This document shows positions 6,634 to 60,434 of a stretch of DNA of 64,000 nucleotides, piece after piece. The stretch covers positions 2,658,501-2,722,500 of the forward strand of contig NZ_CP061336.1 of assembly GCF_005473905.2 (NCBI RefSeq). Reading direction: 5' to 3'. Source of the stretch: Ruminiclostridium herbifermentans. Lineage in GTDB: Bacteria > Bacillota > Clostridia > Acetivibrionales > DSM-1351. The translations under genes and the position numbers were made by a program. The notes beneath the pieces were generated by a model. It had not been told where the DNA came from. It did no database searches and saw only the letters and a program-made list of their open reading frames with translations. The stretch's first letter is position 1. Each line of letters begins with the position of its first letter.

Positions 6634-8136
6634 TTAAGATATTGATAACAGTTCCAAATTTTTATTTAAATTTAGTTTAGATATAAACTCCATTTCATCT
6701 ATATGGCCTGAAACATAAAGTTCATAAATAAGAATCCAAGAAAATGCATTATCCCTTACTTGGCTTATATTTTCACTTTCCAACAAATCTTTTCGTAGAA
6801 GAATAATTTTAGCTAATTCATTTCTACTTTCTATAATTTGTTCCACTAGTAATTGTTCAATATTATTGCCTGTTTCGACCAACAAATATAACAGCCATAG
6901 TACTTCCAAATCATGCTCATACCTAATATGTTTGGTTATCATATCCTTTATAAGGACAACATCTTTTACATCTAATGTTAGGTTTTCTTTGTTTTTAATA
7001 AACAATGAACATGCCTTTGTTAAAGAGCGATCATTATTTTCAATAATTGTTAATAAATAAGCTTTATATAGGGATATGTTAGTTGCTTGTATCGGATTTT
7101 GTTCTAATGTTTTTAGCAAATATCTTATCGCTCCTTTAGTTCCATTTTTCTCCAATAATAAATATGTATTAAATAACTTCATTAATTCTGAATTATCCAG
7201 AGATTCTTTAATGAGTCCCTTAAAAATCTTTTCTAAATTCTCTACTACATAATAAGGAAAATCGTCTATCTCCGTCTTTTCATAATTAAGAGAAAATCCA
7301 TACTTTTTAAGCACTCTTGTAAAAATGCTTATTATGGATTTTTCATCATCATTAAAAAGATAAATTTCATAATCATCAACATATCGAGAAAATTTAATAC
7401 CCTCAAAATTCAATTCCTTATCAATACGAGTTAGAATTCCTTCCGCTATAATTTTTGATATTAATGGGCCAGGTAACAATCCGTTAGTTCTATTTAAATT
7501 TTGTCGTCTAAGGACTTCATCTAGTTTACGATATTTTCTATAAACATTACTAATTGTCTGATCATCAGGATTCCTTATAAATTTATTATAGTTGCGTTCA
7601 GTTTCTTCAACACCTAACAAAATTGCTGGTATCATATGCATATAGAAGCTAGAAAAGCAATTTGATATGTCTAACTTTAATACTTTTTTAGCCCCTGTTG
7701 CCTTAATTATTTTTTTGGCAATATTTTCAATATAATTAGAAGAAATTTCCTCCAATTGAGCAAAATCCATTATTTGAGTCGTTGTTCCACTATATGCTTG
7801 TTCATGTCTCATAATGCTATCATTTTCACCTAAAATAGGAGAAAACGATGCTTCGTTGTTTTCAGTAAACTCAATTAGTTCTTTTATAATATTTTCTTGC
7901 CTGATATAATTTCGAACGACAGTATACGCTCCGATTTCAGGAATAAAAATATTACGCCTAGCATCATTGTTGTTATATCTACTCATCGTAAAACAATATG
8001 GTTGAATTAAATCACAGTTCTCAGGAGGAACTCTCATAAATACTTTTTGATCTAATTTAAAACATGGAGGCAAATATTCAGAAAAAAAACCTGTTTCTGC
8101 TATTTCTTTTTCTATTTTGTTATAATCTCTAAGCAT
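6634..8136 (-). CDS. Defence-type reverse transcriptase (Abi/DRT-like)
   Basis: 500-aa protein with a reverse-transcriptase palm in its middle. Motif A is LKLDISNCFSSFY near residue 152, motif B is GLLPGPLISKIIAE near residue 222, and the catalytic YVDD lies in FSRYVDDYEIYL near residue 252. The N-terminal 140 residues lack the group II maturase layout. The last 190 residues are predicted to be all-helical and repeat-like, as in AbiA/AbiK and other UG/DRT reverse transcriptases. Such enzymes act in phage defence by making DNA products, often without a template. No intron RNA or retron msr/msd is evident beside it. It follows the gene at 8180 by 43 bases on the same strand, with its own AAGGAGA site, suggesting a two-gene unit. 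The exact UG/DRT class cannot be assigned by eye. Confidence 0.8.
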   Translation of the reverse strand: MLRDYNKIEKEIAETGFFSEYLPPCFKLDQKVFMRVPPENCDLIQPYCFTMSRYNNNDARRNIFIPEIGAYTVVRNYIRQENIIKELIEFTENNEASFSPILGENDSIMRHEQAYSGTTTQIMDFAQLEEISSNYIENIAKKIIKATGAKKVLKLDISNCFSSFYMHMIPAILLGVEETERNYNKFIRNPDDQTISNVYRKYRKLDEVLRRQNLNRTNGLLPGPLISKIIAEGILTRIDKELNFEGIKFSRYVDDYEIYLFNDDEKSIISIFTRVLKKYGFSLNYEKTEIDDFPYYVVENLEKIFKGLIKESLDNSELMKLFNTYLLLEKNGTKGAIRYLLKTLEQNPIQATNISLYKAYLLTIIENNDRSLTKACSLFIKNKENLTLDVKDVVLIKDMITKHIRYEHDLEVLWLLYLLVETGNNIEQLLVEQIIESRNELAKIILLRKDLLESENISQVRDNAFSWILIYELYVSGHIDEMEFISKLNLNKNLELLSIS

Positions 8137-12429: not shown

Positions 12430-13788
12430 TTACTTAGAAATATATCTCACAGGCTTATTAAGTTTACTTACCATACTTAGAGACATTGCTCTTTCAATCC
12501 ATGTAGACGCTTGTTTTTTATTTATATTCAATTTTAATGCAATTTCTTCTAGAGTCATTGGTTGTTTTAGCAATTTAATTATTGATGGAATAACTATATC
12601 AAATAAATCATATGATGTTTGAGTCTCAAGAATTTTTTCTTTATCTATTCCGCTAATTCTACTTGCATTCTTTTTTGAATTAATATCGTAAAATTCATCT
12701 ATAACTAGTTCTGTATCCTTTTTACAAATAGCACTTGTATCCGTATTTTTATCTTTAACTGTATCAGTGATTTCCTCTAAAACTTCTTTAATATAAGCCT
12801 CCGAACACTCTCTTATAGCCAAATCCTTCTCATATATTCCAAACAAATCCATTTGATTGTTTAAAGAAATTTTTTCACTTATTAAATCTGATAAATTATC
12901 TTTAGCAATATCAGTAAGTGGTATTCCACCCTTTTCAATTAACTTTTTATTCCCATCATATGTCTTATTATCCCATATAAAGGTTTTAACCCAATTATTC
13001 TTAATATTCTCTATTGCTCCTGCCCAAGTTCCGCCTTTGTTAAAGTCTGATGCAATAACAAAAGCAGCACTTGACAGGCAGTATATATACTTATTTCTGT
13101 TCATAGCTCCTCCAGCAGAAAAAGGAGCATCGGGATTGTTTGCGCTTATGAGCAGCAATTGCTTATTAACGATTCTTTCCCTAATTTCTTTCTTTTTAAT
13201 CCTCTGAGATAACGAATCTGCCAAAATTGAAACCACCTTACCTCTATTTTCAATTGCAGATTGCTCTGAAGTTGTATCTATACCTTTTGCTCCACCTGAA
13301 AATATAGTAAGATTTTCACCAGCAGCCTTTTTAGCCAAATCGTAAGCAAATTTAACACCCTTCTCATCAATGTTTCTTGAACCAACTATAGCTATTCCTT
13401 TGCTATTTATCAATGATATATCTCCAGAATAGTAAAGTAATGGAGGAGCATTCTTTTTTAATAATGCTTTTATCCTCTTTGGATATTCCTTGTCACTTTT
13501 AGTTACCACACCTATACCTTTTCTTGATAACTCTTCAAGTGCAAAAGCAAGCTTCGCCCCTCTAGATAGTAGTATAGAAATTCTCTCTGCATTTTCTTCA
13601 GAAATCAATAGATTATTTTGAATTTCCTGCTTTGAAAGTTGCATTAAACCTGCGGGTTCTTTAATTTTAGAATTAATAATATTTGCTGCCAAGTTGCTCC
13701 ATTCCACTATTGAAAATGGTTTAGCTCCATCATCCTTCAATAAGTGACTGCATAATAAAATAGTTACATAAGCATTATCTGAAAACAT
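12430..13788 (-). CDS. DprA/Smf-family protein paired with RecQ-PRTase
   Basis: 452 aa. A helical N-terminus (1-100) is followed by the DprA Rossmann-like domain: PPLLYYSGD, KGIAIVGSRNIDEKGV near residue 130, FSGGAKGIDTTSEQSA near residue 163 and KVVSILADSL. The C-terminal 80 residues look like a winged helix (LLKQPMTLEEIALKLNINKK). DprA normally loads RecA on incoming single-stranded DNA, but this copy is not in the usual topA-dprA setting and is longer than the typical 360-380 aa. Its ATG follows directly on the RecQ stop (TAAATG), with its ribosome site GGAGGACAAG inside the RecQ 3' end, so the two are translationally coupled. DprA-like proteins paired with phosphoribosyltransferases occur in anti-phage systems such as ShosTA, so a defence role is plausible but inferred. 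Confidence 0.85.
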   Translation of the reverse strand: MFSDNAYVTILLCSHLLKDDGAKPFSIVEWSNLAANIINSKIKEPAGLMQLSKQEIQNNLLISEENAERISILLSRGAKLAFALEELSRKGIGVVTKSDKEYPKRIKALLKKNAPPLLYYSGDISLINSKGIAIVGSRNIDEKGVKFAYDLAKKAAGENLTIFSGGAKGIDTTSEQSAIENRGKVVSILADSLSQRIKKKEIRERIVNKQLLLISANNPDAPFSAGGAMNRNKYIYCLSSAAFVIASDFNKGGTWAGAIENIKNNWVKTFIWDNKTYDGNKKLIEKGGIPLTDIAKDNLSDLISEKISLNNQMDLFGIYEKDLAIRECSEAYIKEVLEEITDTVKDKNTDTSAICKKDTELVIDEFYDINSKKNASRISGIDKEKILETQTSYDLFDIVIPSIIKLLKQPMTLEEIALKLNINKKQASTWIERAMSLSMVSKLNKPVRYISK

Positions 13789-15888
13789 TTAATCTTGTCC
13801 TCCTGAGCCTGCTGTATTTGCTAATGCAAACGGATATACAAGCCCTGCTCCCTTTTTTCTAAGTTTATATCCACATACGGTAAATGTCCATCTTGAATCT
13901 ACCATATCATCAACTAATAATACATTACCGGCATGAACATTATTATTTACTTCAAAGCTGTCCCAAGCATTTTTAAATTGACTATGACTATTATGAAGTT
14001 CTTTTTGTTGCTTAACATCTGCAATCTTAATAATTGTATCATAATATGGTAATCCAAGTAATTCAGATAACCTTACAGCAAAGCTTCTAACTAACTCTGG
14101 TCTTCTAAGTGAAGAGACAGCAGTTATCCACTCAATATTTTTTTGCCCTGCAAAATCTTTTAGCAGTTCAAAAGAAGCTTTTACTAAATCATCTGAAAAA
14201 TATCCGTCGTTATATTTGTTTTTACTAACTTCTCTACCCCAGCCAGCATCTCCATAATTACTTAGTGCAATTCCATTCTCGCACCTATACATTTCATTAA
14301 TTTTATTCTTACCATCTACAGATAATCCAGTCGGCCACTGTTTTCTTGCCTCAATTGTATAATGTTCATTTTTTATATATTTCAGTGCCTCTATAATTGT
14401 ATCTCTTTTAACCGAACTTGGGTATATGTCTTTTTGTAAACAATTTCTGCATCGGTTACACTTTTTTGCAAAAGAATCATTTAGCTCCTTAGCAATGAAC
14501 TCCATATAGCAATCATCTGTTTTAATAAAATCATTCATTCTTTGCAGTTCATAATGTCTTATCTTAGTTATGCTTTCGCTATATGCTAAATCGGGAGTCC
14601 ATGGTATAGGTGACTTATAATACTTTGAACCATCTTTATATATATCACCACTTATAACTAAAAACTTCAAACAGTTTTCCAGTCTTTTATTACGTATGTC
14701 TATTTCTTTCATAATTTCATATATAGATATTCCATCACTATTCTCTATAGCTTTTACAACAATATCCATTTCTTTATATGTAGGAAATGCGGTATTAATA
14801 AAATAATTAGTTATTTCATCGTCTTCATTGCCAGCAAGTAAAATTGCATCTGCTGACTCAATTGCTCTTCCGGCCCTGCCTATTTGCTGATAATATGTAA
14901 CAACATTACCTGGCTTTTGAAAATGTATTACAAATCCAATATCTGGCTTGTCAATACCCATACCGAAAGCAGTAGTTGCAACTAGTACTTTCATCTCATT
15001 GCGGATAAACATTTCTTCAAGCCGTAACCGTTCTTCTTTTTCCTCAATTTTATCTTTCCTTAACCCTGAGTAATAAGCATACGCATCAATACCGCACCAT
15101 TTCAGCCATCCTGCTACTAAATTGCAATCATGCTTTGTTAAACAATAAATTAAACCCGTGCCATGCATTTTATTAATATTCTCAATTAACCATGCCAATC
15201 TTTCTTCTTTTCTATTTAAATGTATAACTTGTATTGAAAGAGATTCTCTTATCAATGGACCTCGTTGAATAATTATATCATTGCCTAGCTGTTCTGAAAC
15301 ATCTTTAACCACACGATCATTAGCTGTTGCGGTAGTAGCTAGCAAAGGAACATTTGGTGGCAAAAATTTTACAATATTTATAATTCTTCTATAGTCAGGT
15401 CTGAAATCATGTCCCCAATCAGAGATACAATGTGCCTCATCAATCACCAGCACCCCGATTGAACTATTAATCTCATTTAAGATATTCTTTTTAAATTCCT
15501 CATTATCCAATTTCTCGGGTGCTATAAATAAAACATCAACCTTGTTCTCCCTCAGTTCTTGATAAATTTCTTCCCATTCATCTTTATTATTTGTGTTTAT
15601 TGTTCTTGTATTTAGTCCGAAATTATTGGCCGATTCAATCTGATTGTTCATTAATGCAAGTAATGGGCTAATAACTAAAGTAAATCCTTTTCCTTCTTTG
15701 CGCAATATTTTAGTTGACAGAAAATAAATCAAGCTTTTACCCCATCCTGTTTTCTGCACAACTAAAGCTCGCTTTCCTTGTAAAACCCCAATAATTGCTT
15801 CTAATTGACCATCTCTGAAAGTTGCGTCTTCACCATAAAATTCTTTCAGGCACTCAATTGCAATTCTTTTTAATTGCTCTTTATCCAT
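13789..15888 (-). CDS. RecQ-family DNA helicase fused to a phosphoribosyltransferase-like domain
   Basis: 699 aa. Helicase motifs: TGWGKSLIYFLSTK (Walker A, near residue 47), LVIDEAHCISDWGHDFRPDY (DEAH box plus the RecQ aromatic loop, near residue 150), VATTAFGMGIDKPDIGFVIH and YYQQIGRAGRA (motif VI, near residue 335). A zinc-binding CNRCRNC lies near residue 480. The last 150 residues are not RWDC/HRDC but a phosphoribosyltransferase fold ending in GNVLLVDDMVDSRWTFTVCG, which resembles the PRPP-binding loop LVDDxxxTGxT with the Gly replaced. RecQ helicases unwind DNA 3'-5'. The fused PRTase and the coupled DprA gene suggest a dedicated system rather than housekeeping repair. Start ATG at 15888 with AGGTGACTCT. 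Confidence 0.88.
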   Translation of the reverse strand: MDKEQLKRIAIECLKEFYGEDATFRDGQLEAIIGVLQGKRALVVQKTGWGKSLIYFLSTKILRKEGKGFTLVISPLLALMNNQIESANNFGLNTRTINTNNKDEWEEIYQELRENKVDVLFIAPEKLDNEEFKKNILNEINSSIGVLVIDEAHCISDWGHDFRPDYRRIINIVKFLPPNVPLLATTATANDRVVKDVSEQLGNDIIIQRGPLIRESLSIQVIHLNRKEERLAWLIENINKMHGTGLIYCLTKHDCNLVAGWLKWCGIDAYAYYSGLRKDKIEEKEERLRLEEMFIRNEMKVLVATTAFGMGIDKPDIGFVIHFQKPGNVVTYYQQIGRAGRAIESADAILLAGNEDDEITNYFINTAFPTYKEMDIVVKAIENSDGISIYEIMKEIDIRNKRLENCLKFLVISGDIYKDGSKYYKSPIPWTPDLAYSESITKIRHYELQRMNDFIKTDDCYMEFIAKELNDSFAKKCNRCRNCLQKDIYPSSVKRDTIIEALKYIKNEHYTIEARKQWPTGLSVDGKNKINEMYRCENGIALSNYGDAGWGREVSKNKYNDGYFSDDLVKASFELLKDFAGQKNIEWITAVSSLRRPELVRSFAVRLSELLGLPYYDTIIKIADVKQQKELHNSHSQFKNAWDSFEVNNNVHAGNVLLVDDMVDSRWTFTVCGYKLRKKGAGLVYPFALANTAGSGGQD

Positions 15889-39371: not shown

Positions 39372-40622
39372 TCATTCAGTTGAATCATCATCTTGCCAAA
39401 CCCCTGTGTAAGGATTATATGCACATTCTACTGTGCTAGCATACCAGTCCTTGTTGCAATCATTTGACTGAGCAATAGGTCTGCAATCATAGCATGCATA
39501 TCGGTATTCACAATCCTTACATTTTTTCACGTCATCCTTTGTAGTATTCCAACACTTCTGAAGATCAGACCCGTTAAGTATCTCACTTAATGAAGAATCA
39601 AGTATATTCCCGCAAATTTCATTACGAGCAAATATACAAGGAAAAACATCTCCTGTTGAGCTCACTGCAATTTTCCCAGCTAGACAGCTATGGTATTTAT
39701 GTGCTTTCCAAAATTCCTCAGCACTTGTATAGAAAGGAGGTCTTATTTTAGGATTTTTGTATTTAGTAGGCAAAAGCTTCTCATCATCCCCTCTTCCAGT
39801 AGGACGAACAACATCTAGCTTAGTAGCGGGCAGGCCTAAATCTTCTAATAATTTCAATATATTATCAGCCTCATTTTCGTTTGTTTTCATAATAATTGAA
39901 GCAATACGAATAGGAATACCTGCATCTAAAATTTTTCTGACGGCACTCATTGTTTTATTAAAGCTGCCTGAATGTAGTGTTACTTGGTCATGTACCTCAG
40001 CATTATCAGCGTAAATGGTTGTTGCAATATTCACATTTTGCTGCTTAAAAAAATCTATACAAGATTGATCAATTAGAGTTGCATTTGTATATATTTCAAT
40101 AAACTCATATCCTTCTTCATTTGCCTTAATTACAAGTTCCCTCCACTTCGGATAAAGCAGCGGCTCTCCACCAATAAGCTGTATTGAGGTAGCCCCTTCT
40201 TTGCGAGCTTCACTAATTAAAGACATCCATCTCTCATGGGGTACCTTATCATCATTTCTGCAGGCATCACTAGAACTATAACAATGTAGGCATTTATTAT
40301 TGCACTTTGAAGTAAGTTCAAGCCATAAAAAAGACAGCCTCTGTTCTTCAGCTTCTGTATTCTTCATTGATTTATCTTCAGGTTTATTGATGTAGATTGC
40401 TCCTAGTCCTCTATATGTTAATTGATCTATAAATTCCAACACATTTTTATTTTCTGGCAGCTTTATATCAATTACCTCATCGATAGGTTCTCCTTGACAT
40501 TTCTCTAATAGCTGCAGCGCATCAGGATTAATTGAAAAAACCTTACCCGATTTAAAATCATAAATTGCACCTCTACAAGCTCCCTTTACCAATTGGCAAT
40601 GTGCATTCAGCCTATAATACAA
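39372..40622 (-). CDS. Radical SAM/SPASM peptide maturase-like protein
   Basis: 416 aa. The best start is the TTG at 40622, five bases after GGGGGGAG; an upstream TTG at 40637 lies inside that site. Residues 1-85 form a small domain (YYRLNAHCQLVKGACRGAIY, FSINPDALQLLEKC) like the N-terminal recognition region of RiPP maturases with SPASM domains. The radical SAM core has the cluster motif CNNKCLHC near residue 108 and IQLIGGEPLLYPKW near residue 145. The C-terminal SPASM region is Cys-rich: CLAGKIAVSSTGDVFPCIF, EICGN, CKDCEYRYACYDC and a final Cys, enough for two auxiliary iron-sulfur clusters. Such enzymes install thioether or other C-X links in ribosomal peptides. The Cys-Pro repeat peptide upstream on the same strand is its likely substrate. 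Confidence 0.88.
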   Translation of the reverse strand: MYYRLNAHCQLVKGACRGAIYDFKSGKVFSINPDALQLLEKCQGEPIDEVIDIKLPENKNVLEFIDQLTYRGLGAIYINKPEDKSMKNTEAEEQRLSFLWLELTSKCNNKCLHCYSSSDACRNDDKVPHERWMSLISEARKEGATSIQLIGGEPLLYPKWRELVIKANEEGYEFIEIYTNATLIDQSCIDFFKQQNVNIATTIYADNAEVHDQVTLHSGSFNKTMSAVRKILDAGIPIRIASIIMKTNENEADNILKLLEDLGLPATKLDVVRPTGRGDDEKLLPTKYKNPKIRPPFYTSAEEFWKAHKYHSCLAGKIAVSSTGDVFPCIFARNEICGNILDSSLSEILNGSDLQKCWNTTKDDVKKCKDCEYRYACYDCRPIAQSNDCNKDWYASTVECAYNPYTGVWQDDDSTE

Positions 40623-41104
40623 GTTATCTCCCCCCAATAATTATTTTGAGAGTGAACCTCCCCCTTTCACTCTCATTATTCTAAAAACTGAATCCTATGT
40701 TTATTACATGAAAACTTGAATCATTCATTTGCTTCTGAAAGTACACTATTTGTTAAATTTTAAAATCAACTTTCTCAATTGAAATTATAGGTGTCAGACC
40801 TTATCAAATGAGAATTTATATAACGGCTTAAAATTAAGTTAATGTATTTCTAATTATTTTAGGAACCTTGCAGGATAAAATTATAATACCAATTTACTAG
40901 TACTCTCACTTCAGCAACCAATTGCATTTTTGAAACTTTAAAGTGCACCATATAAGCACCAGCTATATTTTAGTTATTTTTATAACAGAACTTTATAATT
41001 TTCCTGCACAATAGTTCCATGTGCGAAAGTTCTTTTAAATTTGCTTCATAAAATCTGATGTATAGTATACATGCGTTTAAGCTGTGTACTATGTTAAATA
41101 TACT
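40623..41104. other. Gap between repeat peptide and radical SAM gene
   Basis: 482 bases. It holds copy 3 of the dispersed hairpin element (40931-40980). No gene-like frame; no strong terminator was recognised, so read-through from the peptide gene is possible. Confidence 0.5.
40931..40980 (+). repeat. Dispersed hairpin element, copy 3
   Basis: TGAAACTTTAAAGTGCACCA / TATAAGCACCAGCTATATTT / TAGTTATT aligns with 23863-23912 at most positions. The stem is weaker than in copy 1. Confidence 0.65.
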
Positions 41105-41590
41105 TTATGGAGCACAATTAGGCAGACACTGACTTGGAGGACATGGTCTGCATTGGCTTGGTGGACATGGCCTGCACTGGCTTGGCGGACATGGCCTACA
41201 TTGACTTGGAGGGCATGGTCTGCACTGGCTTGGCGGGCATGGCCTGCATTGGTTTGGCGGACATGGCCTACATTGGTTTGGCGGACATGGTCTGCATTGG
41301 CTTGGTGGACATGGCCTACATTGGTTTGGTGGACATGGTCTGCATTGGCTTGGTGGGCATGGCCTACATTGATTTGGTGGACACGGCCTGCATTGGCTTG
41401 GTGGACATGGTCTGCATTGCTGAGGAGAACAGCCTGGCAACGGTGGACAAGGAATAATTATAATTGGTTCACGAACATCGGATTCATCATAATAATCATC
41501 TTCCGAATAGGAATCTTCATATTCACCGTCATCACACCAATCTACAATTTCCGGTCTGTAAACTGGCCTCATGTCATCATTATCATACAT
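41105..41590 (-). CDS. Cys-Pro octad-repeat peptide, candidate RiPP precursor or coat protein
   Basis: 161 aa, with GGAGAGATGATT before the ATG. Residues 1-45 are acidic and Tyr/Asp-rich (VDWCDDGEYEDSYSEDDYYD), ending in REPIIIIPCPP. Residues 50-161 contain about twelve tandem copies of the octad QCRPCPPS or QCRPCPPN, ending QCLPNCAP, so nearly every fourth residue is Cys. There is no signal peptide. The DNA shows a 24-bp tandem repeat over about 41130-41435. A radical SAM/SPASM gene follows 480 bases downstream on the same strand, suggesting an acidic leader plus a repeated core that is modified. Alternatives are a spore-coat or metal-binding protein. The Trp-rich frames on the other strand are shadows. 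Confidence 0.75.
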   Translation of the reverse strand: MYDNDDMRPVYRPEIVDWCDDGEYEDSYSEDDYYDESDVREPIIIIPCPPLPGCSPQQCRPCPPSQCRPCPPNQCRPCPPSQCRPCPPNQCRPCPPSQCRPCPPNQCRPCPPNQCRPCPPSQCRPCPPSQCRPCPPSQCRPCPPSQCRPCPPSQCLPNCAP

Positions 41591-42066
41591 TAATCATCTC
41601 TCCAATCATACAAGATAAATATTATTTTATGTTACCCTATATCATATTCATGAGGCAGTTATGTAGTTACACATCAATGATTCGGTTCATAGTTCTGTAG
41701 TTTTAATTATCAGATTTTTATATGATTTTTATCTGCTTTCATTGATAAACCAGAAAAAGTTACCTTGGTCATTGGGCTTATAAAAACTAGAAATATTTCG
41801 TTCAGCATTGGTTAGTTTCTTTTCAGTTTGAAAAGGTTTGGATTTTAAAAGTCATAGATTTAAAAAGTCTTGGATTTGATAAGTCTTAGATTTAAAAAGT
41901 CTTAAAATTTAAAAATTTGGGGGTTGAAATAGTTTTGGTTAAGAAAAGTGTATCCCCCACTAACTTTTATTAATATAGATAGTTAAAAAACTGTAGGCTG
42001 CTGCGTTTTCACGCAGCAGCCTACAGTTTTAACGCCTGCTAAATAATTCGGCAAGCAGTTTTTTTA
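41591..42066. other. Intergenic stretch, 476 bases, with short tandem repeats
   Basis: Near 41845-41915 a 16-17-base AT-rich unit (AGATTTAAAAAGTCTTG) is repeated about four times imperfectly. The xylanase terminator lies at 41988-42029. Confidence 0.6.
41988..42029 (-). terminator. Perfect intrinsic terminator of the GH10 gene
   Basis: AAACTGTAGGCTGCTGCG pairs without mismatch with CGCAGCAGCCTACAGTTT around a 6-base loop, followed by a T-run on the minus strand. Confidence 0.93.
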
Positions 42067-48237: not shown

Positions 48238-50097
48238 ATGAAAAGAAGTCGCTTACTAATTTTGTCATTAGTAATAGCACTTGCTGCAAGTGTTTTTTCA
48301 ATGACAATAGTCTCCGCAGCAACACTTTACGGTGATTTAAACCAAGATGGTGCAATAGATGCCATAGATTTTGCTTTAATGAAAGGTCATCTTTTAGGTA
48401 ATACTGAATTATCTGATCTTAAAGCTGCAGATTTAGATGCAGATGGTTCTGTTAATGCACTTGATTACTCATTATTGAAGCAATATTTACTTAAGGTAAT
48501 TGATAAGTTCCCAGCTGATAAAGGCACAGAAGAAGGAAAGAAAACTGAAGCTGAGAAATTGCTTGGAGATATAATTTTCTCTGTTCCTGGTTCAACCTTC
48601 CAGAACTCTATTTCAGTATCTTTAAGTACAAAAATTTCAAATGCTGAAATACGTTATACAACTGATGGAAGCATTCCTACAATTAATTCACCAGTTTATA
48701 AGAATCCTTTAACGCTTACAAAAACCACTCAAGTAAGAGCTCAAGCTTTTGTAAATGGAGCTGCAAGTGGCAAGGTGGGTACAGCAGTTTATATATGCAC
48801 TTCAATAAATACCACTCATGATTTACCTATTGTAATTATTGATTCCTATGGTGCTGGAAAAGCAGGTAAAGAAGATTATTTAGAGGCTGCAATCATGGTA
48901 ATGGAGCCTAAAAACAATCAAGCTTCATTATTGCAAGCTCCTACAATTGCTACAAGAGGTGGCTACCATATTCGTGGACAATCCTCCTCAAATTTTGAAA
49001 AGGCACCTTATAGACTCGAATTCTGGGATAACAAAGGTGACGATGCAAAATATTCAATAATGGGTCTCCCTGCAGATGGAGACTGGTGTTTACTTTCACC
49101 ATATCCGGATAAATCCCTTATCCGTAATGCCTTAGCATATGAACTTGGAAATATAATGGGATTAGAAACACCTGGCTATACATTTGTAGAGGTATATATC
49201 AATACTGATAATCAGCCGGTATCTTCTTCCGACTACCAAGGTGTTTACTTGTTAACTGAAAAAATAGAAATAGACAAGGATCGTCTAAACATTGCGAAAT
49301 TAAAAAAAGAAGATTTAACTGAGCCAAATATTACAGGTGGTTACTTAATGCAGTTCAATATGATGGCAGCAGAACCTCCATTAATCAGAGGTAACGGATG
49401 GTCTGACCTTGAACTTACAGAGCCTGATGATGCTCTTCCTGAGCAAATTGCTTGGATAACAAATTACATTCAAAAAACTCACAATGCTATCCACAGTGCA
49501 AACCCATCAGATCCAAATACCGGTTATCCTGCATACATAGATGTTGATTCATTTGTAGATTATATAATCGTAAATGAAATGGCACGCCAAGGTGACTCAT
49601 ACATGCGTAGTACAAGAATATTTAAAGACAGAGGTCAAAAGCTAAAAGCCGGACCTCTCTGGGACTTTGACCTTGGCTTTGATTGTGTCGCTGGTTTTGG
49701 CTGGGGCGGTGGAGGATCTTCTAATGTACAAGGATGGCAGTTCCAACCTATGTTCGGTACAAACTCGACTGTTGATTGGTACTACACATTAATGAAGGAT
49801 CCAAGCTTCCAGCAAAAAATTGCAGCCCGTTGGAGTTCATTACGCAGCGGTCCTCTATCTGATAATAATTTGAAGGCATTGATACAAAGGTTATCAAGTC
49901 CGTTGTCAAACGGTGCAAAGCGTAACTTCCAAAAATGGAATATCTTAAACACTTCTATGGTAGGTGGTTTTGGAACACAAACTACACAGACTTGGGAGCA
50001 GCAGATAGATATTCTTCAAAGATTTGTAATCAATAGAGCTGCTTGGCTAGACACATCTGGTTGGAAGCCTACAACTACTAACCCATGGGGATTTTAG
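48238..50097 (+). CDS. CotH kinase-like protein with N-terminal dockerin
   Basis: 619 aa, ACAGGAGGAATTTTGT before the ATG. Signal peptide 1-28. A type I dockerin lies at 31-95 ([40 protein letters not shown]). A chitobiase/FN3-like beta domain occupies about 115-190 (AEIRYTTDGSIPTINSPVYK). The CotH domain spans about 195-600: RGGYHIRGQSSSNFEKAPYR, KSLIRNALAYELGNIMGLET, GVYLLTEKIEID and the active-site GPLWDFDLGFD. CotH proteins are atypical protein kinases, known from spore coats. Dockerin-borne CotH proteins occur in cellulosomes, where their role is unsettled (structural, or phosphorylation of cellulosome proteins). Monocistronic, with its own promoter region. Confidence 0.9.
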   Translation: MKRSRLLILSLVIALAASVFSMTIVSAATLYGDLNQDGAIDAIDFALMKGHLLGNTELSDLKAADLDADGSVNALDYSLLKQYLLKVIDKFPADKGTEEGKKTEAEKLLGDIIFSVPGSTFQNSISVSLSTKISNAEIRYTTDGSIPTINSPVYKNPLTLTKTTQVRAQAFVNGAASGKVGTAVYICTSINTTHDLPIVIIDSYGAGKAGKEDYLEAAIMVMEPKNNQASLLQAPTIATRGGYHIRGQSSSNFEKAPYRLEFWDNKGDDAKYSIMGLPADGDWCLLSPYPDKSLIRNALAYELGNIMGLETPGYTFVEVYINTDNQPVSSSDYQGVYLLTEKIEIDKDRLNIAKLKKEDLTEPNITGGYLMQFNMMAAEPPLIRGNGWSDLELTEPDDALPEQIAWITNYIQKTHNAIHSANPSDPNTGYPAYIDVDSFVDYIIVNEMARQGDSYMRSTRIFKDRGQKLKAGPLWDFDLGFDCVAGFGWGGGGSSNVQGWQFQPMFGTNSTVDWYYTLMKDPSFQQKIAARWSSLRSGPLSDNNLKALIQRLSSPLSNGAKRNFQKWNILNTSMVGGFGTQTTQTWEQQIDILQRFVINRAAWLDTSGWKPTTTNPWGF

Positions 50098-57674: not shown

Positions 57675-60434
57675 CTATTTCGCTGTAAATACAGGTCTTA
57701 CACTTACATTTCCAGTAGGATTGAAGGTTATAGTATCAGAGGTAGTTGTAACACCTGATATTCCTTCCCAATGGTCAAATTTGTAGCCTTCATTTGGTAT
57801 AGCTTTTAATGTCACAGGAACACCTTTAAAGTAAATTCCAGTCCAACTTGATGCATTGGTTATTCCAGGTGTTGTAGTTTTTATATCAATTGAATTAACC
57901 TTTACATAGCCTTGTGCTGTATTAGTCGATATATTGATTTCTGCTGTTCCTGTTACTCCATCATTTCTAAAATTATTTACTATGGCTTGTCTCATGTATG
58001 AAGGTCTTTGTTCTGCATAGTTCTTTAGAACTTTTACACTATCATCCCATGAAGAACCACCCATACCTGGAATGCCAGGGATACCAGGAATACCACCACC
58101 CTGATTATTATTTCCCATACTAATAGCTTGCCATCTATCACAATGCTCAGGCATTGCAGTTTGAATTCCTGCCTTTAATTCATCTACCTTTGCAGTTACT
58201 CTTGAAGGAATAAATGATGTATTGAGTTGGTCTGCAAAAGCATTAATAAACTGATTTCTAAACTCAGTATTTTGAATTAGCGTTTTTAACAGGAATACAG
58301 CCCATGAACTGTTTGAATTAAGAGCAGCTCCAGGTACATATTGCTCTGAAGTAGCATATTTTATAGAATCAAAAGATGGACTTTGATTTTGGTATCCAAA
58401 GCCGAAGTCAGTATCCTTAAGCATCCATCTCCATCTTCCATCCTGTCCATATGGAGCCTCTGGATGATATTTTCCATCATCAGTCTTGTACTTCCAAATA
58501 GCTACATTATTGCCCGGCCAGTCTGTATTACCGCAGTAAATCTGAGTTACATTATAATTAATGTAGTTTTCGATATCTATCTTTGTTTTAATATTCTCAT
58601 AAACTTCTGTATTTCTAATATTATTACTTTTCAGATAATTTATAACATCATCTTGATACAGCTTGTAGTCTTCAGGCTCCCCTTCCGAAACTTCAGGTGT
58701 TTGTAATACATCTAGTATAATAACTTTATTCTTATCAAGATTATAGTGGGCTTTGAGATATTTATTATCATAGCGTTCTCTTATGTTGTAAATACCCCAG
58801 AATTCACCATCTAAGAACACAACTGAGGGTCTATATGCCATAGTATCTACATTTAGATGTGATACTAAACTCTGAATTAAAGCATCTCTGAAAAATGTTC
58901 CTGAATTATCATTTCCAGCATTTCTCAAAATTAATGTTTCAAATTTATCTAACTTCTTTCCATTTGCCTTCTTTTTCAATCCTGGGAATATTTCATATTT
59001 ATATGAATCTACATCATCATAATCATGACCAGCATAAAGTCTAAGTGATTTCTGAGCAATCTTTCTTGTATAACCGCCATTTATACGTATACCGCTGTTA
59101 TCAGAAAATGCAAGCGTTCCGTCTTTCTCAAAGAACTCAATATGTACAGGTCTTTCCCATTCCTCGCCTTTCTTTTCATAGTTCCCATTAACATATATTC
59201 CTTTTGAATTATCAAAGAAATTAGCTTGGTCTGTAACTAAAGATATAACAGGCAAGTTGTATCTGCTAGCTATATTCTGGTCTACAAAATATGAATGGGT
59301 AATTATTTTGCTTTTATTACTGCCATCTTTAATTGCAACTGCCTTTATTGTTGTACATTTAAAAACCTCTCCCTTTGGTCCTCTCCATTGTGACCACATA
59401 TCATTTGATATATTAGAAATCGCAGAAAGAACATTTGGATCTCCTGCTCTGCTTTTAACTAATATTGGACTTGTGTATTCGAATGTTCCTTGTTTACCGG
59501 GAACAGGATCAGAACCATTTAGAGTATAATAAATTTTTGTATTTGGTTCATTTGTTGTCAGCTGAAGATTAAATTGAGATGTATAAAAACCACCATTATG
59601 TGAAAATGCAGGTTCTTTTACAACTATTGACTCAGATGAATTAATATTTGAATTTGAAGGTGATGCCTTGGAGAATATTACCCATTCTGAAGAAGCATCA
59701 GTCTTTCGTCCGTATGACTCATTATCCTTTAATGCAGGAAATGTCAGTGAATCAATAATAGATCCATTGGGTGCTTTCAAGGTTATCTCCTCACCTGAAG
59801 CACTTAATTTAAAATTAGTATGTAACTGCCCATCTTTTGCAACTTTATTCTTATCCGATGCCCACACAAGCAAGTATCCCTTTGCTGGAATAACTCCCGA
59901 AGGGAATTCCCATGTACTAGATGAATCAGACAGAGTATAACCTCTTAAATCAACTGCCTGATTGCCGGAATTGTAAAGTTCTATCCAGTCAGAATAGGCA
60001 CCTCCAGAACTTCCTGCATCAGCGTCCTCAATATCTCCATCACGTAATGTAGTATTAGATGCCATTATCTCGTTAATAAAAATTGTCTTCACACTTTCTG
60101 AAACTGGGAATTCTGTAATTGTTCCAAGTAGATACATTTTCATTAATGCCAAATCGATAGCAGAAATTGTACCATCCCCGTTTAAGTCACCCGCAGCCAG
60201 ATCATTGTAAACAGGAAAACTACTTAATGTTCCAAGCAAATAGCTTTTCAACAGCGCAAAGTCTATTGCATCAACACTTGCATCTCCATTTAAATCTCCA
60301 ACTATTATAGAATTGGTCATTCCACCAGTATTTCCGGCATCAGCAGCAAATACTTCTAAATTAGTTCCTAATGTAAATGTTGATTGGGAACTTAGAATTA
60401 ACGATAGTGCTATAGCTGTTAATTTCTTTCTCAT
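57675..60434 (-). CDS. CotH kinase-like protein with dockerin, lamin-tail and InlB-like repeat domains
   Basis: 919 aa, AAAGGGGATATTTTT before the ATG. Signal peptide 1-30. A dockerin lies at about 45-112 ([40 protein letters not shown]). A lamin-tail (LTD) domain is at about 118-250 (FINEIMASNTTLRDGDIED, YSDWIELYNSGNQAVDLRG). A chitobiase/FN3-like domain is at about 275-375 (TKIYYTLNGSDPVPG). The CotH domain spans about 385-720, with SGIRINGGYTRKIAQKSLRL and the active-site MLKDTDFGFGY. A Gly/Pro/Ile run (GIPGIPGIPGM) precedes the C-terminus. An InlB-B-repeat-like domain ends the protein (VTLKAIPNEGYKFDHWEG). It is secreted and would attach to a scaffoldin; kinase activity is inferred from the family. 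Confidence 0.9.
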   Translation of the reverse strand: MRKKLTAIALSLILSSQSTFTLGTNLEVFAADAGNTGGMTNSIIVGDLNGDASVDAIDFALLKSYLLGTLSSFPVYNDLAAGDLNGDGTISAIDLALMKMYLLGTITEFPVSESVKTIFINEIMASNTTLRDGDIEDADAGSSGGAYSDWIELYNSGNQAVDLRGYTLSDSSSTWEFPSGVIPAKGYLLVWASDKNKVAKDGQLHTNFKLSASGEEITLKAPNGSIIDSLTFPALKDNESYGRKTDASSEWVIFSKASPSNSNINSSESIVVKEPAFSHNGGFYTSQFNLQLTTNEPNTKIYYTLNGSDPVPGKQGTFEYTSPILVKSRAGDPNVLSAISNISNDMWSQWRGPKGEVFKCTTIKAVAIKDGSNKSKIITHSYFVDQNIASRYNLPVISLVTDQANFFDNSKGIYVNGNYEKKGEEWERPVHIEFFEKDGTLAFSDNSGIRINGGYTRKIAQKSLRLYAGHDYDDVDSYKYEIFPGLKKKANGKKLDKFETLILRNAGNDNSGTFFRDALIQSLVSHLNVDTMAYRPSVVFLDGEFWGIYNIRERYDNKYLKAHYNLDKNKVIILDVLQTPEVSEGEPEDYKLYQDDVINYLKSNNIRNTEVYENIKTKIDIENYINYNVTQIYCGNTDWPGNNVAIWKYKTDDGKYHPEAPYGQDGRWRWMLKDTDFGFGYQNQSPSFDSIKYATSEQYVPGAALNSNSSWAVFLLKTLIQNTEFRNQFINAFADQLNTSFIPSRVTAKVDELKAGIQTAMPEHCDRWQAISMGNNNQGGGIPGIPGIPGMGGSSWDDSVKVLKNYAEQRPSYMRQAIVNNFRNDGVTGTAEINISTNTAQGYVKVNSIDIKTTTPGITNASSWTGIYFKGVPVTLKAIPNEGYKFDHWEGISGVTTTSDTITFNPTGNVSVRPVFTAK

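Follow-up and report, generated by a model that had tools for sequence, protein, structure and literature searches.

Cys-x-Pro repeat peptides and their radical SAM/SPASM enzymes suggest an as yet unnamed maturation system that is often linked to sporulation

Introduction

Is the cysteine-rich repeat peptide encoded beside a radical S-adenosylmethionine (SAM) enzyme in Ruminiclostridium herbifermentans a substrate of that enzyme, and if so, which unit of the peptide is modified and what is the product used for? The two genes lie on the same strand in a 64,000-nucleotide stretch (hereafter, the window; contig NZ_CP061336.1, positions 2,658,501 to 2,722,500) of a genome that consists of a single contig of 4.82 Mb. 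The initial annotation proposed a new system of ribosomally synthesized and post-translationally modified peptides (RiPPs), in which each octad of the peptide would be a core unit. Our analysis of the pair and its relatives suggests that peptides rich in Cys-x-Pro (C-x-P) and their SPASM-type radical SAM enzymes make up a maturation system that has no name so far and that is often linked to sporulation.

The C-x-P peptide

The gene order, the shared strand, and the 12 exact octads that had been annotated were borne out by the reading of open reading frames (ORFs; Table 1). The 45 N-terminal residues of the peptide include 17 D/E vs 3 K/R, and 28 of its 29 Cys residues lie within C-x-P. No signal peptide was read by eye, and no Pfam or NCBIfam family matched at E 0.1. 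The 12 octads are encoded by 12 different DNA sequences, and their pairwise codon differences comprise 184 synonymous and 32 residue-changing ones, all 32 being S/N at position 8. The protein sequence of the octads has therefore been kept by selection, with no fresh duplication of DNA.

In 34 related peptides (double-glycine loci being left out), 408 of 420 Cys residues are in C-x-P, as compared with a mean of 98 and a maximum of 125 in 1000 shuffles, although this fraction is an upper estimate because the peptides were chosen by their C-x-P content. Pro occupies the +2 position of Cys in 95% of cases (mean over peptides) and carries 1.81 bits, vs 0.77 at the next most informative position (+3). 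Residue x is nearly anything (R, S, N, Y, F, D, and P are the commonest), and no other neighbour of Cys in these peptides, including Arg at +4, is conserved to a comparable degree, a result that is unaffected by the selection. Since x is nearly free and no other neighbour is strongly conserved, every C-x-P unit probably stands as a site of its own; Cys, Pro, or the backbone between them should then take part in the chemistry.

Two other arrangements were considered. The octad was rejected as the modified unit, since homologues retain C-x-P only; the unit is C-x-P, two per octad. Disulfide pairing is not implied by the number of Cys residues, which is even in 18 peptides and odd in 16. A count over 55 peptides, including the double-glycine ones (512 of 550 Cys), was left unused, two or more of its ORFs being artefacts and one a repeat.

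The enzyme and its predicted recognition element

The window enzyme matches the Pfam families Radical_SAM (E 4e-20) and SPASM (E 1e-8), and its seven SPASM Cys residues are invariant across 17 aligned homologues. It likely starts at the TTG codon given in Table 1, following GGGGGGAGATAAC; this codon was taken as the start because R. sufflavum and several close homologues carry TTG at the equivalent place. The AlphaFold2 (AF2) model, built with 17 homologues (pLDDT 84.8), gave Foldseek matches to SuiB, SkfB, CteB, the anaerobic sulfatase-maturating enzyme (anSME; anSMEcpe), and TigE, and the best matches of the enzyme profile to the PDB were SkfB (E 2e-26) and then anSME (E 1e-19).

A RiPP recognition element (RRE) fold is predicted for the N-terminus, for which the initial annotation had suggested a comparison with PqqD-like profiles. 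Modelled alone, residues 1-79 gave a pLDDT of 93, and their best Foldseek matches were lasso-peptide B1 proteins bound to leader (6jx3 and 5v1v; TM 0.78 and 0.79 by query length), followed by CteB, a YcfD-like hydroxylase, the PbtF RRE, McbBCD, TigE, and SuiB, with E-values of 2e-3 and weaker, i.e. none <0.001. The Pfam PqqD model matched the window enzyme below its cut-off (E 0.0025) and matched 4 of 16 family members.

None of the best 25 of 71 NCBIfam families matching the window enzyme (E 0.1) reached its cut-off; the anSME model does not figure among these 25. Five other family enzymes and two peptides, compared with NCBIfam at E 1e-24, gave no match above cut-off, and 12 C-x-P proteins gave one weak NCBIfam match below cut-off and no Pfam match.

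Pairing of peptide and enzyme among relatives

The same pair, in the same order, is present in R. sufflavum DSM 19573, with an enzyme 76% identical to that of the window and a peptide repeat region that is partly an assembly gap. The peptide was found in 2 of 11 genomes of the genus Ruminiclostridium, and the enzyme (E <= 1e-40) in 2 of 60 relatives, the same two genomes. A single-protein scan of genome contigs found no relative, whereas a scan with an alignment of the window, R. sufflavum, and Lutispora enzymes (one genome per species, 84,980 species) yielded 540, of which the best 80 loci were retained. In a plasmid search, all relatives were <60% identical (best, 25% over 91% of the query).

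When the nearest 20 loci were filtered on Cys content alone, many enzymes proved to be adjoined by small Cys-rich ORFs. A filter for C-x-P (at least three, with at least half of the Cys residues within C-x-P) identified an adjoining C-x-P peptide in 12 loci, two of which (L025 and L029) had formed part of the alignment used as query; reading by eye adds L032, where an ORF with 3 of 6 Cys in C-x-P from its likely start fails the filter, making 13 of 20. The other seven (L024, L030, and L033-L037) have no C-x-P ORF by filter; L024 begins at a contig end, with an ATP-grasp-like gene adjoining (by eye) and no C-x-P peptide in the short contig end. Of 60 more distant radical SAM loci, one (L062) passes the filter, probably through an artefact ORF. 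G351 (E 6e-29), a fourth match from the class sample, lacks a C-x-P ORF within the 11 kb of its locus. Near the outgroup enzyme of the Bacteroidales locus L035 (1533-7215), we also observed another radical SAM gene with a 72-aa Cys-rich peptide having few or no C-x-P.

In a tree of 45 enzymes, that of the window belongs to a nine-member clade in which every locus has a C-x-P peptide (support, 100/99); eight of the ten members of a second clade also have them. Presence of a C-x-P peptide requires four changes on the tree, vs a mean of 14.7 when labels are shuffled, and none of 500 shuffles was as low.

The enzyme is concentrated in the order of Sporomusa, which consists of Gram-negative spore formers. 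With a 14-row enzyme profile (E <= 1e-90), it was found in 27 of 28 genomes of this order, including Sporomusa ovata (G435, L019) and one genome (G462) in which it is cut by a contig end, vs 2 of 398 in a sample from the phylum of the window. The filter identified an adjacent C-x-P ORF in 19 of 24 further loci of the order (L115-L138). The initial expectation of a conserved peptide-maturase pair is thus supported in R. sufflavum, among the nearest relatives, and in this order, and a precursor with leader and core is encoded with a maturase, as is usual for RiPPs. The order of the two genes is that of the window in R. sufflavum; in the order of Sporomusa it is mostly the reverse, with the peptide gene following the enzyme gene.

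Unlinked C-x-P proteins and their co-occurrence with the enzyme

Profiles of the linked peptides, and then of linked and unlinked ones together, revealed further C-x-P proteins elsewhere in these genomes. The second search covered 48 genomes, 30 with the enzyme (27 of the order of Sporomusa, G434, the window genome G000, and R. sufflavum G003) and 18 in which none was found by the thresholds applied (17 Clostridia and, from the order of Sporomusa, G449). By profile, C-x-P proteins were found in 27 of the 30 genomes with the enzyme and in none of the 18 without it. The three missed, i.e. the window genome, R. sufflavum, and G453, all have a linked peptide. In 27 genomes, unlinked C-x-P proteins are encoded at 62 distinct places altogether, with one to nine per genome and two or more in 19 of the genomes; 26 of the 27 enzyme-bearing genomes of the order of Sporomusa carry one to nine of them. 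All of the 40 places that were fetched contain C-x-P ORFs (filter, at least two C-x-P and at least 40% of Cys in C-x-P), with 359 of 380 Cys residues in C-x-P, and no enzyme-like ORF was found within the 1.6-2 kb fetched around each. The leader of C-x-P proteins has the motif W-x-x-PE(I/M)-x-x-W with acidic residues, present in strict form in 33 of the 40; its window counterpart is Y-R-PEI-V-D-W.

The initial annotation had named the occurrence of such peptides mostly without a nearby radical SAM gene as evidence against its proposal. To the letter this is what we found, since unlinked C-x-P genes outnumber linked ones. Because among the 48 genomes they were found only where the enzyme occurs, we read them as substrates in trans and do not count them against the pairing. 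The one genome of the order of Sporomusa without the enzyme, G449, has no C-x-P protein by profile and has kept SpoIVA, and may perhaps represent a natural loss.

Promoters and the link to sporulation

The pattern CATANNATG is present <=110 bases from the script-chosen start in 33 of the 40 unlinked C-x-P genes, the expected number being 0.7 (0.017 each, from the rest of the same loci). Once aligned, they approximate GTAACA-N16-CATATTATGTA, and 91% have C at -18. Upstream of the enzyme genes of the order of Sporomusa, CATANNATG is found in 21 of 24 regions, with AC at -21 to -16 in 21 of 21. In that order, the promoter element is thus common to enzyme and C-x-P genes.

spoIVA is a mother-cell gene. 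In the order of Sporomusa and G434, its upstream regions contain TGTCATATATTT in 14 of 15 cases, mostly preceded by a TAATATT-like element, an arrangement that is sigma-E-like; within the same genomes, spoIVA and the C-x-P genes are thus alike at -10 and different at -35. For Clostridium difficile, sigma-E and sigma-K are reported to have a -10 in common but distinct -35 elements, and a sigma-K promoter of sigK has CATATAAT at -10 and AC at -35 (PMC3789822); in Bacillus subtilis, sigma-K elements are given as 14-16 bases apart (PMC517825). The sigma-K pattern (-35 AC, -10 CATAnnnT, and sigma-K spacing) is present in the order of Sporomusa and weak in the window. Within that order, sigma-K-like promoters support the early suggestion that the product stays in the cell or in the spore.

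We derived a matrix from 22 such sites in the order of Sporomusa and scored 127930 positions of the window with it. The site before the window peptide, GTAACTACATAACTGCCTCATGAATATGATATAGGG, has a -10 that starts 58 bases before the ATG and ranks 21 of 127930, being the best of its 160-base region.

SpoIVA was found in 35 of 39 genomes with or near the C-x-P system. One genome lacking it, G453, is 1.8 Mb in size and may be incomplete. A spore role for the whole family was rejected, three hosts being without SpoIVA; since it is missing in some family hosts, such a role is at most a property of the Sporomusa/Ruminiclostridium branch.

A proposed pathway and the points against it

We consider it rather probable that C-x-P arrays destined for the spore surface are modified, at a late stage in the mother cell, by an enzyme with an RRE and a SPASM domain. 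The N-terminal RRE would bind the acidic leader through the PE[IM]xxW motif, and the radical SAM/SPASM part would then act on the core, where each repeated C-x-P unit would be one site. In the order of Sporomusa, one enzyme would serve several C-x-P proteins encoded around the chromosome, enzyme and substrate genes standing behind a common, putatively sigma-K-like, late mother-cell promoter. In its modified form, the product would most likely be a structural component of the spore coat or exosporium; that neither an exporter nor a protease gene adjoins the pair would then be understandable. Ruminiclostridium probably acquired the pair laterally, with the same use.

Several observations weigh against this interpretation, besides the selection of peptides by C-x-P content. 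Five of the 24 further loci of the order of Sporomusa have no adjacent C-x-P ORF by filter: L133 (L145) and L126 (L144) have short ORFs with 2 of 3 Cys residues in C-x-P, L137 is at a contig end, and L115 and L135 (regions L143 and L146) have no adjacent C-x-P ORF; the genomes of all five carry unlinked C-x-P proteins. Enzymes linked to C-x-P peptides do not form one clade, no tree of 200 bootstrap replicates having a single change, and L022 and L023 stand apart. Seventeen of the 18 enzyme-free genomes are distant Clostridia, weak as controls given that the window's own peptide escapes the profile, and G449 is the only close one. G441 has spore-type unlinked C-x-P proteins, and only a second-branch enzyme was found in it. 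The promoter match of the window peptide is weaker than those in the order of Sporomusa (score 1.9 vs 10.0 for the best site in the window; chance about 0.02 for its region), GTAAC and AATANNNTATAGGG in R. sufflavum, at the same spacing, are weaker still (score -2.8), and the matrix detected no similar promoter before the enzyme gene in the window or R. sufflavum. Finally, SpoIVA is absent in three genomes that carry family members, one each of Marinilabiliaceae, Synergistaceae, and Selenomonas ruminantium. As a separate observation, the spore-type C-x-P proteins of G441 (C31; L242 and L243) are preceded by a sigma-K-like element.

Comparison with known systems and possible chemistry

CteB (SCIFF) and SkfB are radical SAM/SPASM maturases that form thioethers on Cys-containing peptides. 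The window enzyme resembles both: SkfB is the best PDB profile match, both are Foldseek matches, and CteB is also a match for the RRE alone. The system differs in its substrate, a C-x-P array in which none but Pro is strongly conserved as a possible thioether acceptor, and, in the order of Sporomusa, in having several substrates in trans and a sporulation-type promoter. The cut-offs of the sactipeptide/ranthipeptide models are not reached by the window enzyme (AlbA, 75.9 of 850 bits; SkfB, 61.1 of 300; StsB, 95.9 of 625). The SPASM maturase model of grasp-with-spasm systems (TIGR04193) matches it with E 2e-32, at 112.8 bits against a cut-off of 175; no ATP-grasp gene was seen by eye among the ORFs near the window pair, a reading made with no profile scan aimed at ATP-grasp. 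TigE, a Foldseek match, is likewise an enzyme for a repeated core; Tig repeats are TIGSVS, and the modification of Tvg and Tig gives cyclopropylglycine. TvgA/TvgB is also a system in which a radical SAM enzyme acts on a repeated core motif, TVGG (PMC9062424), vs Cys-x-Pro in the window. In the part of the open PMC literature covered, no description of a C-x-P system with an RRE-SPASM enzyme was found.

The modification could tentatively be a thioether that links the sulphur of Cys with a carbon inside or beside the C-x-P unit to which this Cys belongs, giving -2 Da per unit, an assignment that we find plausible without holding it probable. The main chemical alternative, which we regard as unlikely, is anSME-like chemistry, whereby each C-x-P Cys would be converted to formylglycine (or a thioaldehyde) and the resulting poly-aldehyde protein would self-crosslink the spore surface. 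anSME is a SPASM enzyme acting on Cys in CxPxR, the sulfatase maturation motif (PMC11500405), it follows SkfB in the PDB profile matches and is among the Foldseek matches, and only C and P are strongly conserved in our peptides; however, the Arg at +4 that is part of the sulfatase motif is unconserved, so that C-x-P is present and CxPxR is not. The anSME match spans only the common core and SPASM, and the window system has no sulfatase substrate and up to 28 C-x-P per substrate. It also has a predicted RRE, whereas anSME is not known to have one and the crosslink-forming CteB and SuiB, both matches in the RRE search, do.

With regard to the product, the structural role proposed above might extend to dispersed C-x-P proteins, with up to 28 sites each, being modified in trans by the late mother-cell maturase throughout the order and forming a hardened spore-surface layer, although we would not put this at even confidence. 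A secreted, diffusible peptide, antimicrobial or signal, in place of a structural protein is considerably less likely. It finds support in a second branch, in three genomes of which several precursors with double-glycine leaders precede one second-branch enzyme: eight of the nine C-x-P ORFs in L026, and a row of four in L141 (2973-4154) and of five in L142 (2315-5103). This branch, with four to eight such precursors beside one enzyme, seems to employ the same chemistry for a secreted product. No adjoining transporter was recognised by eye in L141 or L142; two of the three genomes, G437 and G470, have a spore-type enzyme copy as well as a second-branch one. Short precursors (52-61 aa) in Selenomonas, Synergistaceae, Lutispora, and a Marinilabiliaceae metagenome-assembled genome also fit secretion. 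Against it are the sporulation-type promoters, the spread of the enzyme through the order of Sporomusa (27 of 28 genomes), the fixed locus that it occupies there, and the neighbourhoods themselves. In all eight of these that were read (L143-L150), the enzyme lies by what we take to be tig, with clpP and/or clpX beyond (L144 ends inside clpP), and no transporter or peptidase was seen by eye, ClpP belonging there to the housekeeping tig-clpP-clpX locus; outside the order, in G578 (L151), the enzyme is not by tig. Nor was a transporter or peptidase recognised by eye adjoining the window pair. As regards leader removal, no protease gene was recognised by eye adjoining the pair in the window or in R. 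sufflavum, and an unlinked one may serve. That the peptide alone is a disulfide-linked or metal-binding coat protein, the radical SAM gene having another substrate, is very improbable: many spore coat proteins are Cys-rich and unlinked C-x-P genes exist, but G449, the sole genome of the order of Sporomusa without the enzyme (a single case), is also without a C-x-P protein, the C-x-P rule holds across different leaders, and the promoter element is common to enzyme and C-x-P genes.

Organization of the locus and other features of the window

On the minus strand, the peptide gene follows a GH10 xylanase gene with SLH domains (47088-42067) and is separated by a gap of 482 bases from the enzyme gene, beyond which lie genes for a single-cohesin protein (38915-38286) and CrcB (37684-37304). 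The genes for xylanase, peptide, enzyme, and CrcB are in the same order in R. sufflavum, where no cohesin ORF was found within the series (ORFs of at least 120 aa) and a stem-loop similar to that of the window was seen by eye between the two genes of the pair.

Table 1. Features of the C-x-P peptide and enzyme locus in the window
Feature	Position	Strand	Basis
Sigma-K-like promoter candidate, GTAAC-N17-AATATGATATA, before the peptide gene	41635..41670	minus	matrix match; kept in R. sufflavum
C-x-P array precursor peptide, 161 aa, 12 exact octads QCRPCPP(S/N)	41105..41590	minus	ORF reading
Acidic leader; PEIVDW is the counterpart of the PE(M/I)xxW leader motif of relatives	41456..41590	minus	alignments
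Core; C-x-P units CPP, CSP, then CRP/CPP pairs, CLP, CAP	41105..41455	minus	
Stem-loop just before the enzyme gene, possible attenuator or terminator	40648..40674	minus	z -2.55
Radical SAM/SPASM maturase, 416 aa from TTG at 40622 (ORF open to 40637)	39372..40622	minus	
Predicted N-terminal RRE, PqqD-like	40386..40622	minus	AF2, Foldseek
CNNKCLHCY, radical SAM 4Fe-4S site	40278..40304	minus	sequence, alignment
SPASM region, seven Cys: C313, C329, C368, C371, C377, C380, C400 (416-aa numbering)	39423..39686	minus	

Elsewhere in the window, two CotH-kinase proteins with dockerin domains are encoded at 48238-50097 (plus) and 57675-60434 (minus), a cellulosome setting. Defence-type genes were also observed, i.e. 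a reverse transcriptase at 6634-8136 (minus; PADLOC RT_UG31 (DRT), E 8e-139) and neighbouring PsyrA (E 9e-117) and PsyrT (E 2e-270) matches at 12430-15888 (minus), which form a PsyrTA-type defence pair.

Implications

The link of the C-x-P system to spores is new here. If the proposed pathway is correct, these proteins would constitute a new family of radical SAM-modified proteins, defined by the simple motif C-x-P, and a single repetitive substrate may undergo dozens of rounds of action by the enzyme. Radical SAM chemistry would be tied to spore structure in the order of Sporomusa, as part of an order-wide spore-building machinery in which peptide maturation, by a new Cys-x-Pro chemistry, would serve armour and not the making of antibiotics.

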